The translations under genes were made by a program, and so were the position numbers. Shown piece by piece: positions 18,199-34,172 of a stretch of 36,523 bases of DNA. Numbering within the stretch: the stretch's first letter is position 1; every line of letters starts with the position of its first letter. Source of the DNA: an uncultured Bacilli bacterium (GTDB lineage Bacteria; Bacillota_I; Bacilli_A; RF39; UBA660); NCBI GenBank assembly GCA_947628915.1, contig CANRBR010000005.1, positions 1 through 36,523 on the forward strand, written 5' to 3'. The notes beneath the pieces are model-generated. The model made no database searches, had not been told where the DNA came from, and worked only from the letters and a program-made list of their open reading frames with translations.

Positions 18199-18831
18199 AT
18201 GAAAAAAATAGTTTTGAATTTAACTTGCTTTATTATTTTAGTAGGATTTATAACTAGTTGCTCTAACAATATTCCTCAAAAAGCAAAAAAATATTTGGAA
18301 AACAAGTATGGTGAATCATTTATATTGAATTCATCCATAGGCAGCAGCACAGATCAATCAAACTATGAGATATTCTTTTATTCGGAATCACATCCAAATA
18401 ATATTGTAAAGGTATATTATGAAAATAAAGAATTCAAAGATAATTACTATGGGATCTTAATTAATGATGAATATAAATTAATGCTAGATAGTATCTTAAA
18501 TAAGCATTTTAATCAAATAAAATATTATTTCAATTTTACAGCAAATTATTTTGATAGTAGTTTAGTTAATAAAAATCAATTTCAAGATGCTATAAGTCAT
18601 TTTAAAGAATCTTTTTATTCCAATACTTTAATTTTCATAAACGATGATAACAATTTAACAGAATATGAATTTAATAATATTTTAAATGAATTACAAAACA
18701 AGGGATTGACAGGATACATAGCAATATACAGGTTATCAACAAGTGAATATGATTCTATTACTGATAGCAATTACAATAAATTTTTAAGTGAAAGTTATGA
18801 GATAAAGCCAATATTTAAGGCTACATATTAA
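18199..18831 (+). CDS. Lipoprotein (paralogous array member)
   Basis: Signal peptide with FITSCSN lipobox; 'KKYLENKYGESF' shared motif; RBS aaaggag. Confidence 0.7.
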   Translation: MKKIVLNLTCFIILVGFITSCSNNIPQKAKKYLENKYGESFILNSSIGSSTDQSNYEIFFYSESHPNNIVKVYYENKEFKDNYYGILINDEYKLMLDSILNKHFNQIKYYFNFTANYFDSSLVNKNQFQDAISHFKESFYSNTLIFINDDNNLTEYEFNNILNELQNKGLTGYIAIYRLSTSEYDSITDSNYNKFLSESYEIKPIFKATY

Positions 18832-18883
18832 ATTTTAAAATGTATAGTTAATTAAATATTTAAAGACTAATTAAAGGAGAATT

Positions 18884-19489
18884 ATGAAAAAAATAGTTTT
18901 AAGTACGATATGTATGATTGTTTTATTAGGATTAGTTGGGTGTGGTAAACCTTCAAAATCAGAAGGTGTTATGGAATATTTAAACGAAGAATATCCAGAT
19001 GAGAAATTTACAATAATTGATAAAGAATATTTAGAACAAGTGGAAGGAAATTGTAATGAAGATGGATATAGTTATACAGTTAAATCAAATGATACAAATA
19101 TTGAATTTACAGTAAAAGATATTTATGAAGAAACAAGTTATGGCACTTGTAATTATGGTTTAACTGATAATTATAGATTAAATTCAATGAAAAAATATGA
19201 ATCTGAATTTAATGATAGTAGGTTATTTATTGGTGAAGGTGAACAATGGATGATAACAATTAAAGTAAATTATGAAGACTTTAATTCTTCAACTGAACTT
19301 GCAAATGTGTTATATAATTTTAAGACATTTTACGAAAATAAAAAGCCATTTACAAAAGATAGTGATGTTGAAGTACACATATATAAACTAGGAGTGCAAC
19401 TTCATGGGAATGTGAAATTAACGTATAGTAATCGAAATATAACATTATCAGATATAAAAAACGATATAGAAGAAATAATTAATAATTAG
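18884..19489 (+). CDS. Lipoprotein (paralogous array member)
   Basis: LGLVGCG lipobox; nearly identical signal region to next gene. Confidence 0.8.
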   Translation: MKKIVLSTICMIVLLGLVGCGKPSKSEGVMEYLNEEYPDEKFTIIDKEYLEQVEGNCNEDGYSYTVKSNDTNIEFTVKDIYEETSYGTCNYGLTDNYRLNSMKKYESEFNDSRLFIGEGEQWMITIKVNYEDFNSSTELANVLYNFKTFYENKKPFTKDSDVEVHIYKLGVQLHGNVKLTYSNRNITLSDIKNDIEEIINN

Positions 19490-19497
19490 GTGGTTTT

Positions 19498-20106
19498 ATG
19501 AAAAAAATAGTTTTAAGTACGATATGTATGATTGTTTTATTAGGATTAGTTGGATGTGGTAAACCTTCCAAATCTAAAGATGTTATGGAATATTTAAACG
19601 AAGAATATCCAGGTGAGACATTTGAAATTATTAGTAAAAATAGTATAGAACTTGAAAATTCTACCTGTGGAGATGATACGGTTTTAGGAAATAAATGGGA
19701 AATTAGGTCGAAAACAACTAATATAGAGTTTATAGTTAGTGATGATTATGATTTTAATTCTTTTGTATGTGAATTTGTTTTAAGAGATAATTATAAATTG
19801 CAGACAGTAAAAAAATATGTTTATGATTATAATGATACTAGAATTATTGTGAACGATAAAGGATATGGGGATTATGTTAATATTAAAGTAAATTATGAAG
19901 ATTTTAGTTCTTCAATCGAACTTGCAAATGTGTTATATAATTTTAAAGTTTTTTATGAAAATAAACCGTCAAGAAAAAACGTTAATGTATCTGTAGATAT
20001 ATTAAAAGCAGGAGAATATGTTGGATATTTTCGTATAATGTATGCTGATAAAAATATAACATTATCAGATATACAAAATAATATAGAAGAAATAATTAAT
20101 AAGTAG
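19498..20106 (+). CDS. Lipoprotein (tandem paralog of previous gene)
   Basis: MKKIVLSTICMIVLLGLVGCGKPSKS identical to preceding paralog; conserved C-terminal 'NITLSDIxNxIEEIIN'. Confidence 0.8.
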   Translation: MKKIVLSTICMIVLLGLVGCGKPSKSKDVMEYLNEEYPGETFEIISKNSIELENSTCGDDTVLGNKWEIRSKTTNIEFIVSDDYDFNSFVCEFVLRDNYKLQTVKKYVYDYNDTRIIVNDKGYGDYVNIKVNYEDFSSSIELANVLYNFKVFYENKPSRKNVNVSVDILKAGEYVGYFRIMYADKNITLSDIQNNIEEIINK

Positions 20107-21170: not shown

Positions 21171-21282
21171 GTAATCTTGTATAAAAAACAATTGAAAACA
21201 TAAATAGTATTTGATATACTGTTTATGCAATAAAATAATGTTATATAGTGCTTTTATATTATAAATGATAGGATGTGATTAT

Positions 21283-22137
21283 ATGTGGATGGATAAACCT
21301 ACAAAAATAAGACAGTTATCTCCTGAGATAGAATATATTATGTGTATAGATGAAAATGGAAATAGTAATAATATTACATATATATTAAAGAAAATATCTA
21401 ATAATAAAGAAGTTCAAGAGGATGAAAAGTATTTTACTATAACAGGGTGTATTTTTAATAAAAAAGATTACATGAGTGCTAAAAAGAAAATTAAGTTATT
21501 AAAAAACAAATATTGGGAAAATGGTATGTTTTACGATGATAAACAAAAAATAAAAAAAGCAGTTTGTTTTCACTCTAGGGAAATAAGAAAACATGATAAT
21601 TGTTTTAATGATAATGTAATAAACTATGATGAATTTATTTTAGATTTAACTGACTTAATGAAAAATATAGAATGTAAAATAATATCTATAAGTGTAAATT
21701 TATATGAGTATTTAAAAAGAGGATATACGCATAATGTTTATAATGTTGCTTTCGATTTTTTATTAGAACGATATATTTATAATACTGATAAAAGTAAAAA
21801 GGGACTTATAATGTTAGAGGCTAGGGGTAAAGAAGAAGATAATTATTTGTTAGAACATATAAGTAAAGTTATTTTAAAGACTGGCACCAAAAGTATAAAA
21901 GCATCTGAATTGAAATCGAAAATTAAAGGTGTTTATTTTAATCCTAAATGGAACGAAGAATATAGTTCAACTTATATAGGACTAGAAGTCGCAGATTTAT
22001 ATTCATATCCAATTCATAAATATATAAAATTGAATAAAAAAGATAAGGCATTTAAGTCTTATGAAGATAAAATAGTTGAATATCCTAATTATACTAATAA
22101 AGGTATAAAAGTATTTCCAAATGAAAATAAAAAATAA
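21283..22137 (+). CDS. DUF3800 domain protein
   Basis: 'MCIDENGNSN' (IDESG-like), 'CFHSREIRKHD', 'LEVADLYSYPIHKY' motifs; aggatgtg SD-like 5' of ATG 21283. Confidence 0.8.
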   Translation: MWMDKPTKIRQLSPEIEYIMCIDENGNSNNITYILKKISNNKEVQEDEKYFTITGCIFNKKDYMSAKKKIKLLKNKYWENGMFYDDKQKIKKAVCFHSREIRKHDNCFNDNVINYDEFILDLTDLMKNIECKIISISVNLYEYLKRGYTHNVYNVAFDFLLERYIYNTDKSKKGLIMLEARGKEEDNYLLEHISKVILKTGTKSIKASELKSKIKGVYFNPKWNEEYSSTYIGLEVADLYSYPIHKYIKLNKKDKAFKSYEDKIVEYPNYTNKGIKVFPNENKK

Positions 22138-22203
22138 GAACTGGATTACCAGTCCTTACCGTCCGCGATACCACGAACCCCAAGTGAATTAAATCACTTT
22201 TGT
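22128..22203 (-). ncRNA. Candidate structured small RNA convergent with the DUF3800 gene
   Basis: Minus promoter TTGACA (22233-22238) N17 TATACT (22210-22215); three hairpins: AAGUGA-UUUAAU-UCACUU, GUUCGUG-GUAU-CGCGGAC, terminator GGACUGG-UAAU-CCAGUUC-UUAUUUUUU; GC-rich core in AT-rich DNA. Confidence 0.65.
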
Positions 22204-22326
22204 ATAACTAGTATAACAAAATTAAAAACTATTGTCAACTAGTCATTATTATTATATTTATTAAATATTTAATTATAACATAGTATAGAGTTATTTATAT
22301 AAATCTTCTTAATTTACACCCTCTAT

Positions 22327-23969: not shown

Positions 23970-26474
23970 ATGATAGAATTAGTAAATTTAAGCAAAGTAT
24001 ATAAATCAAAAAAAGGTGCCTCTACAACAGCTTTAAACGATGTTAATTTAAAGATTGGTAATAAGGGCATGGTATTTATAGTAGGTAAAAGTGGAAGTGG
24101 TAAATCAACTCTTCTTAATTTACTTGGAGGACTTGATGGAGTTACTAGTGGTAAAATACTTATTAATGGTAAAGATATTAGTAACTTTGAAAGTAAAGAA
24201 TACGATGCATATAGAAATACATATATAGGATTTGTATTTCAAGAATTTAATATATTAGAAGAATATAACATATATGAAAATATTAGTCTTTCATTAGAAC
24301 TTCAAAATCTAAAGTCAACTAAAAGTGATATCGATAAACTTTTAGATAAACTTGGAATAAGTGGACTTGGAAATAGAAAAGTAAATGAATTATCGGGTGG
24401 ACAGAAGCAAAGAGTCGCACTTGCTAGAGCATTAATTAAAAATCCTGAGATAATTTTAGCAGATGAGCCAACTGGAAACCTAGATAAAACTTCAAGTGCC
24501 CAAATATTTGAAATATTAAAAGAAATAAGTAAAGAAAAATTAGTAATAGTAGTCTCACACGATATAGAATCTGCTAGAACTTATGCAGATAGAATAGTAG
24601 AAATAGAAGATGGTAAAATAAAGAGTGATACAGATGCTTTAACTGAAAGTGAAATAAAACCATTTAAATTAAAAAAATCAAAACTACCTAATCTATTTGC
24701 TTTAAAGATGGCATTTGCAAATTTTAAATATAAACCATTTAAACTAATTATGACAATTATTTTAACGACATTCTCTTTAATATTTATGGGTGTTACTATA
24801 AACTTTTATATGTTTGATAAGAATCTATTTATTACAAACACTATGAAGGATAACAATAATTATGTTTACGATGTTAAAAATACAAAATTCTTTTATAGTT
24901 ATGGAGCTATTGATTCCGTTGATGTAAAATTTACTTTAGAGGATTTAAAAAATATAGAACCAATAACTAAATCTAAAGTGAATGCTATATATTATTTATA
25001 CAATAATAACAAGTTATTAGAATTTGAATTTGGGCCTAATGAGATTGTAAACACAAACGACTTTTACAGGCCAATTGGTTCACCTAGTTTTGTCGATGTA
25101 AAAGATACAAGACTTTTAAACAATATAATAGGTAGTATTCCTGTTAATAATAACGAAGTAGTAGTGCATAAATATTTTGCAGATTATGCGATTAAATTTG
25201 GAATAAAACTAGTAGATGATACTTTATACTTTCCAAAAGATTATAATGATTTAGTAACTTCTAAAAAAGAGATTAAACTTGGGGATAATTCCATTATAAT
25301 AACTGGTATTATTGATGATGATGACACTTTATATAAAGATGCAAAAGAAACAGGTAAATTTAAAAGTAGCCGTTTGCAACAATACTATAGTGAAAATTAT
25401 AAAGGAAAAGATAGTTATGTATATGGTATTGGACTAATCGATAATATAAAATTAAACGAGGATAAATTATCAACTTTAGATTATACAATGCTTAAATTTA
25501 AAATTGGACTTAGTGAAGAGTTTGCTTCAGGTAATAGACCTTTTAAGGTATTAGATAGTGAGATTAATGTAATTAATGAAAATGGAAACAGTAGTATATC
25601 GAACCTAGAAAAAGAAGAGGTCTTAATTTCTTTAGATGCATTAAAGCAAATATATGGAGAAAGAAATGGAACATTCGATAATAATTTACTCGAATTTATA
25701 AAAAATAATGCTAATTTAACTTATGATGAAGCCTTAGTAAGATTTGTAAGTGATTATTTAAAAGACCATTCAGACCTTGCTCTTATATTACGCAATTATG
25801 CTGAAGAAACAGAGTATAGTGTTACTATAAAGGGTGTTACACTAGATGATACTAACTATGTAAGTTATGGTTATATTAATGATTCTGCACCTAAAACAAA
25901 AGAACTTATAGGTGCAAGAGTATATGATGATGATATTAATAATTTAAAAAGTACATTTAGTAAATTAATATTTAGAGATAATTTTGATAGGGATGAGGTA
26001 GGAACTTTTTATACTTTTATTTTGGACCACCACGATGATATCGGTTCTATAATTATGATATATAAATCTTTATCAAAGTATATTCTAGTAGTTAGTTTAG
26101 TATTTGTATTATTTAATATATTACTATTTTCAAACTTTATAGGAGTTACAATATCATACTCTAAAAAACAAATAGGTATTTTAAGAGCGCTTGGAGCAAA
26201 AGCAGAAGATGTTACAAAGATATTTAGTTTTGAAGCGTTGATAATTGGACTTATTGCTTGGGTATTATCTATTATAGGATTTATTCTAGTTTGTAATTTA
26301 CTTAATAATTCTATATTTGGAAGTATGTATTATACATTAAATGGAATAGTTAGAAATCCATTTATACCAATCATAATGCTTGTTTATACTATTGCAATAT
26401 CATTTTTAATAACATTTATATCTACTAGTAAAGTAACAAAGATTAAACCAATAGATGCTATATTAAATAAATAG
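23970..26474 (+). CDS. MacB/FtsX-type fused ABC transporter (ATPase + permease)
   Basis: Walker A GKSGSGKST, signature LSGGQKQRVALARAL, Walker B ILADEPTGNLD; C-terminal FtsX-like 'GILRALGAKAEDVTKIF'. Confidence 0.9.
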   Translation: MIELVNLSKVYKSKKGASTTALNDVNLKIGNKGMVFIVGKSGSGKSTLLNLLGGLDGVTSGKILINGKDISNFESKEYDAYRNTYIGFVFQEFNILEEYNIYENISLSLELQNLKSTKSDIDKLLDKLGISGLGNRKVNELSGGQKQRVALARALIKNPEIILADEPTGNLDKTSSAQIFEILKEISKEKLVIVVSHDIESARTYADRIVEIEDGKIKSDTDALTESEIKPFKLKKSKLPNLFALKMAFANFKYKPFKLIMTIILTTFSLIFMGVTINFYMFDKNLFITNTMKDNNNYVYDVKNTKFFYSYGAIDSVDVKFTLEDLKNIEPITKSKVNAIYYLYNNNKLLEFEFGPNEIVNTNDFYRPIGSPSFVDVKDTRLLNNIIGSIPVNNNEVVVHKYFADYAIKFGIKLVDDTLYFPKDYNDLVTSKKEIKLGDNSIIITGIIDDDDTLYKDAKETGKFKSSRLQQYYSENYKGKDSYVYGIGLIDNIKLNEDKLSTLDYTMLKFKIGLSEEFASGNRPFKVLDSEINVINENGNSSISNLEKEEVLISLDALKQIYGERNGTFDNNLLEFIKNNANLTYDEALVRFVSDYLKDHSDLALILRNYAEETEYSVTIKGVTLDDTNYVSYGYINDSAPKTKELIGARVYDDDINNLKSTFSKLIFRDNFDRDEVGTFYTFILDHHDDIGSIIMIYKSLSKYILVVSLVFVLFNILLFSNFIGVTISYSKKQIGILRALGAKAEDVTKIFSFEALIIGLIAWVLSIIGFILVCNLLNNSIFGSMYYTLNGIVRNPFIPIIMLVYTIAISFLITFISTSKVTKIKPIDAILNK

Positions 26475-31580: not shown

Positions 31581-34172
31581 ATGATAGAACTTAAAAATGT
31601 ATGTAAGACATACAAATCAAAAAAGGGAAGTAAGACAAAGGCACTCAATAATATATCTTTAAAGTTTGATGAAAAAGGTATGACTTTTATACTTGGTAAA
31701 AGTGGAAGTGGTAAGTCCACACTTTTAAACATACTTGGAGGACTTGATAAATATGATAGTGGAGATATGCTAATACTAGGTAAGAGTAGCAAAGACTTTA
31801 ATGCTTCTTTATTTGATTCATATAGAAATACCTATGTTGGATTCGTATTTCAAGAGTTTAATATATTAGAAGACTATAATGTATACGAAAATATCGTTTT
31901 AGCCCTACAGTTACAACAAAAAGATATAGATAAAGAAAAAATAGATAACCTACTTGATAAATTAGAGTTAAGAGATTTAAAAAATAGAAAATTAAACGAA
32001 CTATCAGGTGGACAAAAACAAAGAGTCGCAATCGCACGCGCACTAATAAAAGACCCTAAAATAATACTTGCAGATGAACCAACTGGAAATCTCGATAGTA
32101 AAACAGGTAAGCAAGTTATGGACTTACTAAAAGAAATAAGTAAAGAAAAACTTGTAATTATTGTTTCACACGATACAGAATCTGCTGATAAATATGGTGA
32201 TAGAATAATTGAAATTAAAGATGGCAGCGTTATAAAAGATACAAAAGAATGTGTAACTAAAGATGATAAAGATACCTATAAACCTATTAAATCAAAACTA
32301 CCATTTAAAGATAGTTTTAAACTGGGAATAGGTAGTTTAAGACATAAAAAGATTAAATTAGTATTTACAATATTACTTACAATAGGTACTTTACTATTTT
32401 TAAGTATTATGGATACATTATCAAATTACAATGTTGAGGAAGCCCATTCCAAACTATTAGTAGATAAAAAAGAAGAATTTATAAAAATAGAAAAGTATTA
32501 TTTCTTTAATAACAAGTATGATAAATACGACTTTTATAATAAAGACCAAGTTAAATTAACTATAGAAGATGAGGACTACATAAATTCAAAACTTAAAAAT
32601 AAGTATTATCCTATATATAAATTACAGGAGTCACACACATTTATGCAAATTGGTGAGGCATTAAAGATAGGAGATATCGCCCACAATAGTTTTTATTTAG
32701 AAATGGGTGCGTACCGTCCTTTAAATATAGTAGTTGTAGACAATTTTAACAATTTTACAAAAGAAAAAATAATAGGAAGATATCCTAGTAATTATAATGA
32801 GATATTAATTCCAAATTATATGGCTGATTTAATTATTGAGGGTGGTATTACAACTTATGAGAAAAACGATGTAGATGAATTTAGCGATGATTATACATTT
32901 AAGCCTAAAGATTATGAAGATATAATAAATAGTAATAAAACATTCTATTTTGGAAGTAAAGGTAAAGTAAAAATAGTTGGAATAATAGATTATGATTTAT
33001 CTAAATATAATTCATTAAAAAATAGAGAATATGATTATGGTGCTATGACTGATGAGCAATTTGATTTATTGGATGAACTTATTTTAAAAGAAAAAAATTT
33101 ATATAATAATGTCTATGTAACTAGTGAATTTATAGAAAAACTAGATGTTGCTAATATAGAAGAATTAGATGAAAATACTGTTTTCTTTAATTTAGATAGT
33201 GATGATGTTGATTTACAAAGAGAGGGTTATTATATAGCCCCAGCAATACTTCAAAATGAATTAGAGTATTATGATGGAACTAAGTGGGTAAAGACTAAAA
33301 ATTTAAATAAAAACGATGTTATTATAAATATATATCAATTAATGAAAGGTTCTTTACAAGACTACGAAAAAGGATTAGAAAAGTATATTTCAAATAATCC
33401 AGATGTAGATGTAGAAACACTAGAGAAGAGATACTTTGTTAATTATATAAAAGATTTTGATATAATCGGTAAAAAAGTAAATCTAAAAGTTAAAAATAGA
33501 ATTGATGAAGTCGTTAACGATTATAAAGATTTAAACATTATTGGTATTACAGGATTTAGTGATACTCAAAGTAGAAATTATTATTTATCTAATGATTTAG
33601 TTGGCGAATATAAAATAGAAGTAATACAAAAGACAGGTTATCTTGTACCAATGTCAGATTATAAAGACTTTAAATATATGTTAACTATATTCCCTTATAA
33701 TAGTGAAATACAAGCAGTCACACCTTATAGTGAAGAAGTTACAATGCTTGTAAGGACTATAGAAATATTAAAAAATATAGCGTTCTATGTAAGTTTAGTA
33801 CTATTTATATTTACAGTATTTTTGATAGGTAACTTTATTATGACAAGTATTCACTACCGTAAAAAAGAGATTGGGGTTTTAAGGGCTCTTGGAGCGAGAA
33901 GTGTTGATATTGTTAAGATATTCTTATGGGAAGGTATTGTAATGTCATTTATATCAGCTACTATTGCATCGATATTACTTGTTTTAGTAACTAATTTACT
34001 AAATAATGTAATTATGGCAGGTACAAATTTGATACTAACACCTTTCATACTTAATATAAGACAGTTTGTATTAATATATTTAGTTGTATTTATAGTAACT
34101 ATTATATCAAGTATTATACCAATCATTAAGATATCTAAAATGAAACCAATAGATGCTATTTTAAACAAGTAG
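31581..34172 (+). CDS. MacB/FtsX-type fused ABC transporter (ATPase + permease)
   Basis: Walker A GKSGSGKST, LSGGQKQRVAIARAL, ADEPTGNLDS; C-terminal 'EIGVLRALGARSVDIVKIF...MKPIDAILNK'. Confidence 0.9.
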   Translation: MIELKNVCKTYKSKKGSKTKALNNISLKFDEKGMTFILGKSGSGKSTLLNILGGLDKYDSGDMLILGKSSKDFNASLFDSYRNTYVGFVFQEFNILEDYNVYENIVLALQLQQKDIDKEKIDNLLDKLELRDLKNRKLNELSGGQKQRVAIARALIKDPKIILADEPTGNLDSKTGKQVMDLLKEISKEKLVIIVSHDTESADKYGDRIIEIKDGSVIKDTKECVTKDDKDTYKPIKSKLPFKDSFKLGIGSLRHKKIKLVFTILLTIGTLLFLSIMDTLSNYNVEEAHSKLLVDKKEEFIKIEKYYFFNNKYDKYDFYNKDQVKLTIEDEDYINSKLKNKYYPIYKLQESHTFMQIGEALKIGDIAHNSFYLEMGAYRPLNIVVVDNFNNFTKEKIIGRYPSNYNEILIPNYMADLIIEGGITTYEKNDVDEFSDDYTFKPKDYEDIINSNKTFYFGSKGKVKIVGIIDYDLSKYNSLKNREYDYGAMTDEQFDLLDELILKEKNLYNNVYVTSEFIEKLDVANIEELDENTVFFNLDSDDVDLQREGYYIAPAILQNELEYYDGTKWVKTKNLNKNDVIINIYQLMKGSLQDYEKGLEKYISNNPDVDVETLEKRYFVNYIKDFDIIGKKVNLKVKNRIDEVVNDYKDLNIIGITGFSDTQSRNYYLSNDLVGEYKIEVIQKTGYLVPMSDYKDFKYMLTIFPYNSEIQAVTPYSEEVTMLVRTIEILKNIAFYVSLVLFIFTVFLIGNFIMTSIHYRKKEIGVLRALGARSVDIVKIFLWEGIVMSFISATIASILLVLVTNLLNNVIMAGTNLILTPFILNIRQFVLIYLVVFIVTIISSIIPIIKISKMKPIDAILNK

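Follow-up and report, generated by a model that had tools for sequence, protein, structure and literature searches.

The locus, which comes from a gut bacterium, raises the question of whether a short hairpin-rich sequence read against the 3' end of a DUF3800 gene is a genuine structured RNA and, if it is, whether it is the dedicated partner of the protein encoded there. The window, meaning the whole stretch of DNA that was analyzed, spans 36,523 nt. In it the DUF3800 gene lies on the plus strand at 21283..22137 and encodes a predicted RNase-H2-like nuclease of 284 aa when read from the ATG at 21283. The first in-frame ATG of the ORF (21265-22137, plus strand) would give 290 aa, but 21283 is the likelier start. 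The protein matches PF12686 in Pfam with E = 3.3e-7, scoring 31.5 bits against a gathering cut-off of 21. A possible promoter for this gene (TTGAAA-N17-TATACT, 21192..21220, plus strand) was picked out by consensus scan only and lies outside the segment conserved among loci; the sequence upstream of DUF3800 varies from locus to locus, and no DUF3800 promoter is conserved with the gene.

Facing it on the minus strand is a small structured RNA gene of about 75 nt (22128..22206), to be read right to left. The original prediction had placed a TTGACA-N17-TATACT promoter on this strand at 22210..22238, and this proved well founded, because the consensus scan gave it 11/12 consensus bases, joint best among the 43 promoter-like sites of the 4-kb region; it also carries an extended -10 element (TG ahead) and is kept in homologues. 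The prediction of three successive hairpins fared equally well. Folding of the 79-nt minus-strand sequence gave three hairpins in a row with an energy of -30.7 kcal/mol, compared with a mean of -13.2 ± 2.6 kcal/mol for shuffled sequences (z = -6.7), with none of 200 shuffles folding as well. Hairpin 1 (AAGUGA/UCACUU, 22182..22199) is followed by a GGG linker and the core hairpin 2 (GUUCGUG-GUAU-CGCGGAC, 22161..22181), and then by the terminator hairpin with its U tract (22133..22160). This last hairpin, read from 22160 to 22133, is the sole terminator-like site between 20000 and 24000 (chance expectation 0.5) and contains the DUF3800 stop codon (22135-22137), as had been claimed; the mature RNA and the ORF overlap by a few bases only. 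No plus-strand terminator was found in the 4-kb region around the gene. The RNA occurs once in its own genome (an assembly of ∼1.06 Mb in 90 contigs), and an Rfam search of the window returned no match to it at E ≤ 1. A tRNA fragment or attachment site, suggested by GGTTCG and CTGGTAA in the sequence, was rejected, as a tRNA search found none.

Elsewhere in the window, a PcfJ-like gene (PF14284, 22365-23852) begins immediately past the RNA promoter, and three tandem lipoprotein-like genes of ∼200 aa, of which two or more are close paralogues (MKKIVLSTICMIVLLGLVGCGKPSKS), occupy 18199-20106. Two large genes lie at 23970-26474 and 31581-34172, the first being an ABC transporter/FtsX fusion; its relatives also match the second over some 650 bases at 70-72%, so that the two look paralogous.

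The RNA is a real structured RNA family. BLAST recovered four close copies in 97 related genomes, and a covariance model (R1), built from five RNA sequences and run on 386 genomes of the taxonomic family to which the window belongs, located the RNA in 25 of them at E ≤ 1e-4, nearly always once per genome. An exact scan of GTDB genomes for the RNA core yielded 26 contigs, mainly from uncultured Bacilli/Tenericutes and including many "Lapin" bins. Promoter, core, and terminator are conserved in the homologues, with a near-consensus promoter in most copies and a core that is nearly invariant within the taxonomic family. All three stems covary, as they should if the original prediction was sound: among 34 distinct sequences, in an alignment fitted to the model structure, two-sided compensatory changes affect 18 of 22 base pairs (5/6 in hairpin 1 and 5/7 in hairpin 2), and 98.6% of cells are paired. 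None of 500 shuffles reached these values, and shifting the pairing partners abolished the signal. In divergent copies the replacement of a stem can be read directly, as in GGGG-UACGUU-GUAU-AGCGUA-CGG. The comparison with Rfam was made more broadly as well, and the RNA matches none of the catalogued DUF3800 motifs; five divergent copies gave no match to Rfam models at E ≤ 5, nor did the viral, phage, and plasmid loci that carry a convergent RNA. Nothing meaningful came from searching phage and plasmid DNA for similarity to the RNA itself. Viral 17-mer matches proved to be chance coding sequence, looser viral pattern matches (L094, L095) were likewise due to chance, and weak model matches at L060-L063 were dropped as AT-rich chance folds.

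The link to DUF3800 was suspected at the outset of being accidental, since the gene was missing from three (G008, G014, G018) of the five copies found first. This reading was overturned, because DUF3800 adjoins the RNA at the majority of the remaining loci, and its absence from G008 and G014 is accounted for by remnants or deletions. Among the 386 family genomes, the window's DUF3800 subfamily is present in 21, and the RNA stands at the 3' end of the gene in all 19 loci where that end is on the contig; these 19 include proteins at 45 and 30% identity. Six viral contigs with DUF3800 homologues (27-54% identity) each carry a convergent RNA built on the plan hairpin, GGG, hairpin, (C)GG/GA/GC, terminator, with unrelated stem sequences. 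Further convergent RNAs accompany DUF3800 in a human-gut phage record, in prophages, and, lacking hairpin 1, on a Brevibacillus plasmid, and similar ones were judged by eye on alphaproteobacterial plasmids, although these fail a strict automatic motif. The strict motif, defined as GG or GGG, a stem of at least 5 pairs, GG/GA/GC, and then a terminator hairpin with a T-rich tail, was present at 22 of 33 DUF3800 genes, whereas none of the 299 other genes from these loci had it; 7 of those 22 DUF3800 genes are distant from the window's protein. In every copy of the window's RNA type the convergent overlap falls at or near the DUF3800 stop codon. The association of RNA and DUF3800 is therefore deep and real, and the predicted pairing of an RNA with a nuclease-like DUF3800 protein gains support from a conserved RNA in the same place by homologous genes and from its covarying stems.

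The placement of the RNA depends on the DUF3800 branch, being convergent and 3' in the window type, mostly 5' for DUF3800-I RNAs of mycoplasma-type genes, and 3' on the sense strand in lactobacilli and at the second DUF3800 gene of the window's own genome. DUF3800-linked RNAs have been catalogued as separate motifs of unknown function. The window RNA resembles the Rfam motifs (DUF3800-I, RF02969, and its sister families) in being non-coding and structured, in ending with a terminator of its own, and in lying next to a DUF3800 gene, and in that linkage it is an RNA of the same kind. DUF3800-I, however, has ∼115 nt around a multibranch core, and its usual place is 5' of mycoplasma-type genes, whereas the window RNA has ∼75 nt in three simple hairpins, is convergent at the 3' end, and is scored by no Rfam model. 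Rfam DUF3800-I RNAs were seen at L146, L142, L143, L140, and L141, mostly 5' of mycoplasma-type DUF3800 genes and co-directional with them, two of the five scoring below the gathering score. A convergent RNA was not found at the DUF3800 genes of three lactobacillar loci. In L125, L127, and L128 (a Latilactobacillus phage and Ligilactobacillus and Lacticaseibacillus plasmids), DUF3800 is followed by a PemK/MazF-family gene and then, on the sense strand, by a structured RNA of a third type, which has its own promoter-like sequence (GTTTGCCACGTCGCAAAC ... GGTTAGGATTCGTCCAAACG ... terminator). The second DUF3800 of the window's own genome (L153, G000:C2:16376-16966) belongs to a different subfamily, found also in L156 and L160; right 3' of these genes lies a larger (∼150 nt), GC-rich structured RNA with no Rfam match, on the sense strand in L153 and L156 and convergent in L160.

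DUF3800 and the RNA form a two-gene cassette that has spread horizontally. Loci resemble one another at the DNA level (75-94%) mostly over a single stretch of ∼1.05 kb, which starts at the DUF3800 ribosome-binding site and stops shortly past the RNA promoter, and in most locus pairs the flanks are unrelated. In the examined loci with both neighbors on the contig the order is gene A, DUF3800, and gene B all in one direction with the RNA opposed between the last two, the one exception having a short opposite ORF by the cassette. Across nine genera, DUF3800 identity (81-100%, mean 88%) exceeds that of ParC/GyrA (57-75%, mean 65%) in 36 of 36 genus pairs and is uncorrelated with it (r = -0.15), which indicates horizontal spread. 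A median dN/dS of 0.094 indicates strong purifying selection on DUF3800, and when 395 genomes of the class were searched by profile, the subfamily turned up solely within the same family. A plain listing of the genes beside the cassette contains two for type IIG restriction enzymes and one each for an Avs2-like NTPase, an EcoRI-type methylase, and the candidate defense protein PDC-M14B. In prophage settings, DUF3800 sits between a CI-type repressor and an integrase in L120-L122 and in the Latilactobacillus phage, and it adjoins an integrase in L119. TnpV-type genes lie close to the cassette in several loci, and no terminal inverted repeats or target duplications were noticed by eye at its ends.

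The protein itself is predicted to be an RNase-HII/H2-like nuclease. Its AlphaFold model (pLDDT 85, pTM 0.87) is a globular mixed alpha/beta fold whose best PDB matches in Foldseek are RNase HII, H2, and HIII (prob 0.91-0.98), although the similarity is weak (E 0.005-0.01, TM ≤ 0.48) and the protein has extra elements and a dedicated RNA partner. A ToxN-type fold was absent among the 50 PDB matches listed, and a PDB sequence search with the DUF3800 profile gave no match. Residues D29, E30, H103, E185, D192, and D244, numbered from the ATG at 21265, are invariant, and D29-E30 (DENG/DECG) resembles DExG, the motif of RNase HII. DUF3800 has been described as an RNase H fold with catalytic rearrangement, and in some Cas12a2 (V-A2) and VI-F loci it is an accessory RNase H-fold nuclease (PMC10910872, PMC12669027).

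Loss within the cassette runs one way: the RNA stays where DUF3800 is lost or broken, and the reverse was never seen in the window's subfamily, where no DUF3800 gene with its 3' end on the contig was without the RNA. In G008 and G014 the gene has been deleted with differing endpoints and the RNA is intact; the RNA is likewise kept where DUF3800 is truncated or broken (L048, L079, L081/G204, L084). At four loci (L066, L053, L054, L056), an ORF6N-domain gene with a C-terminal HDRYFIID motif replaces DUF3800 as the convergent partner, ending at the U tract of the RNA with a stop-codon overlap similar to that of DUF3800. The ORF6N gene of L066 is seemingly split in two. A divergent orphan RNA at L059 (G273:C56) lies by a LigA (DNA ligase) C-terminal-like gene, again without DUF3800. 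A solitary divergent copy is also found in a phage contig (L091:7927-7990, G258:C8:18926-18989), with E = 2.9e-7 for R1 in its genome and the core GGGG-AUUGUU-GUAU-AGCAGU-CGG; it stands 3' of an RNA ligase gene and 5' of terminase, portal, and head genes, with a nucleotidyltransferase nearby. This phage RNA is a candidate RNA decoy, and it would then resemble ToxI mimicry (PMC3475682).

What might such a pair do? We tentatively favor, with a little less than even confidence, a self-contained mobile cassette in which an RNase-H2-like nuclease is restrained by its dedicated RNA, a module resembling RNA-antitoxin abortive infection. Judged by its promoter sequence, the RNA would be transcribed on its own, independently of DUF3800 and probably strongly. 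It most likely binds the DUF3800 protein in trans, with the GGG-hairpin-CGG core as the putative recognition element, and would keep the nuclease inactive within the resulting complex. Were this complex disturbed, for example by phage takeover, the freed nuclease would cut nucleic acid and thereby arrest the cell or the phage. We infer each of these activities (RNA transcription, binding, nuclease action, toxicity, and anti-phage action). Action in trans on the protein is most likely, rather than antisense pairing, because the position and strand of the RNA differ among DUF3800 branches while the association persists, and the restrained-nuclease reading is favored by the one-way loss, by the strength of the promoter in front of the RNA, and by the mobile context in defense/immunity regions. 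Counting against it, the partnership is not exclusive, the RNA being paired with ORF6N genes in four loci, and the orphan RNAs could be leftovers instead of antitoxins. The weak PDB fold matches, the missing convergent RNA at Lactobacillus DUF3800 genes, and the failure of the alphaproteobacterial RNAs under the strict motif also weigh on that side. In its proposed logic of a nuclease with a structured RNA, its mobility, and its anti-phage context, the cassette is like the type III toxin-antitoxin systems (ToxIN, AbiQ, CptIN). It nevertheless falls outside type III, because its RNA is a single copy of three different hairpins with no tandem repeats, is convergent under its own promoter rather than co-transcribed upstream with a shared promoter and attenuator, and accompanies an RNase-H-like fold that is not of the ToxN/AbiQ type.

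The main rival holds that the RNA is instead a working part of an active ribonucleoprotein (a cofactor, sensor, or guide) that aims the RNase-H2-like nuclease at foreign nucleic acid. We regard this as doubtful but worth serious consideration, given the accessory role of DUF3800 in some Cas12a2 (V-A2) and VI-F loci (PMC10910872, PMC12669027), the almost invariant RNA core in the family, and the presence of the RNA wherever the protein is. RNA-guided nucleases of the CRISPR/OMEGA type, however, have a variable guide segment, whereas the window RNA is structured, conserved, and covarying throughout, with neither a variable spacer nor a repeat, and its outlasting of DUF3800 would be unexpected for a mere cofactor. 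Another comparison is with Gram-positive type I toxin-antitoxin pairs in convergent arrangement, such as txpA/RatA and bsrG/SR4, since there too the RNA is read toward the 3' end of the gene encoding the protein. By analogy, the RNA could be a cis-antisense regulator: with no terminator ahead of the RNA gene to stop it, the DUF3800 mRNA would read through and pair with the RNA by its 3' end. The convergent overlap that every copy of the type has near or at the stop codon, together with the missing conserved DUF3800 promoter, would fit. We consider this unlikely, because selection acts on RNA structure beyond complementarity, the mature overlap is a few bases, other DUF3800 branches have the RNA 5' or 3' on the sense strand, and the protein (284-290 aa) is globular and nuclease-like, even its 290-aa form being no small hydrophobic toxin or membrane peptide.

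Could the two genes simply promote their own transfer? The bare two-gene unit with unrelated flanks, its recent movement between genera, and the TnpV-type genes nearby in several loci are what a selfish element would leave, yet its ends lack noticeable inverted repeats or target duplications, there is nearly always one copy per genome, and in prophages and plasmids it occupies a cargo position with integrases separate, which makes this quite improbable. That the region is just a strong bidirectional terminator, without a functional RNA, is barely credible; the terminator hairpin exists, but this reading is already contradicted by the covariation of all three stems, and the near-consensus promoter of most copies, the invariant core, and the association with one protein family also argue against it.

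RNAs associated with DUF3800 are known as a kind; no Rfam model tested matches this RNA class, with its convergent placement, its spread over distant hosts, its change of partner, and its loci that hold the RNA alone. The larger proposal is that DUF3800 and convergent GGG-hairpin-CGG RNAs together constitute anti-phage systems of a widespread and undescribed RNA-partnered class, where the nuclease is under the control of a trans-acting RNA, and that the solitary RNA of at least one gut phage (G258:C8) is a counter-defense decoy. It is speculative, and we put it forward with low confidence. Across Bacillota and prophages, one RNA plan (GGG, hairpin, CGG, and terminator, convergent on the stop codon) follows this DUF3800 branch, and it probably extends into Alphaproteobacteria. 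The role of DUF3800 RNAs is thereby made directly testable, because the bare cassette of ∼1 kb has two easily cloned parts and predicted catalytic residues, and natural RNA-only loci and a candidate phage-encoded RNA are there to work with.
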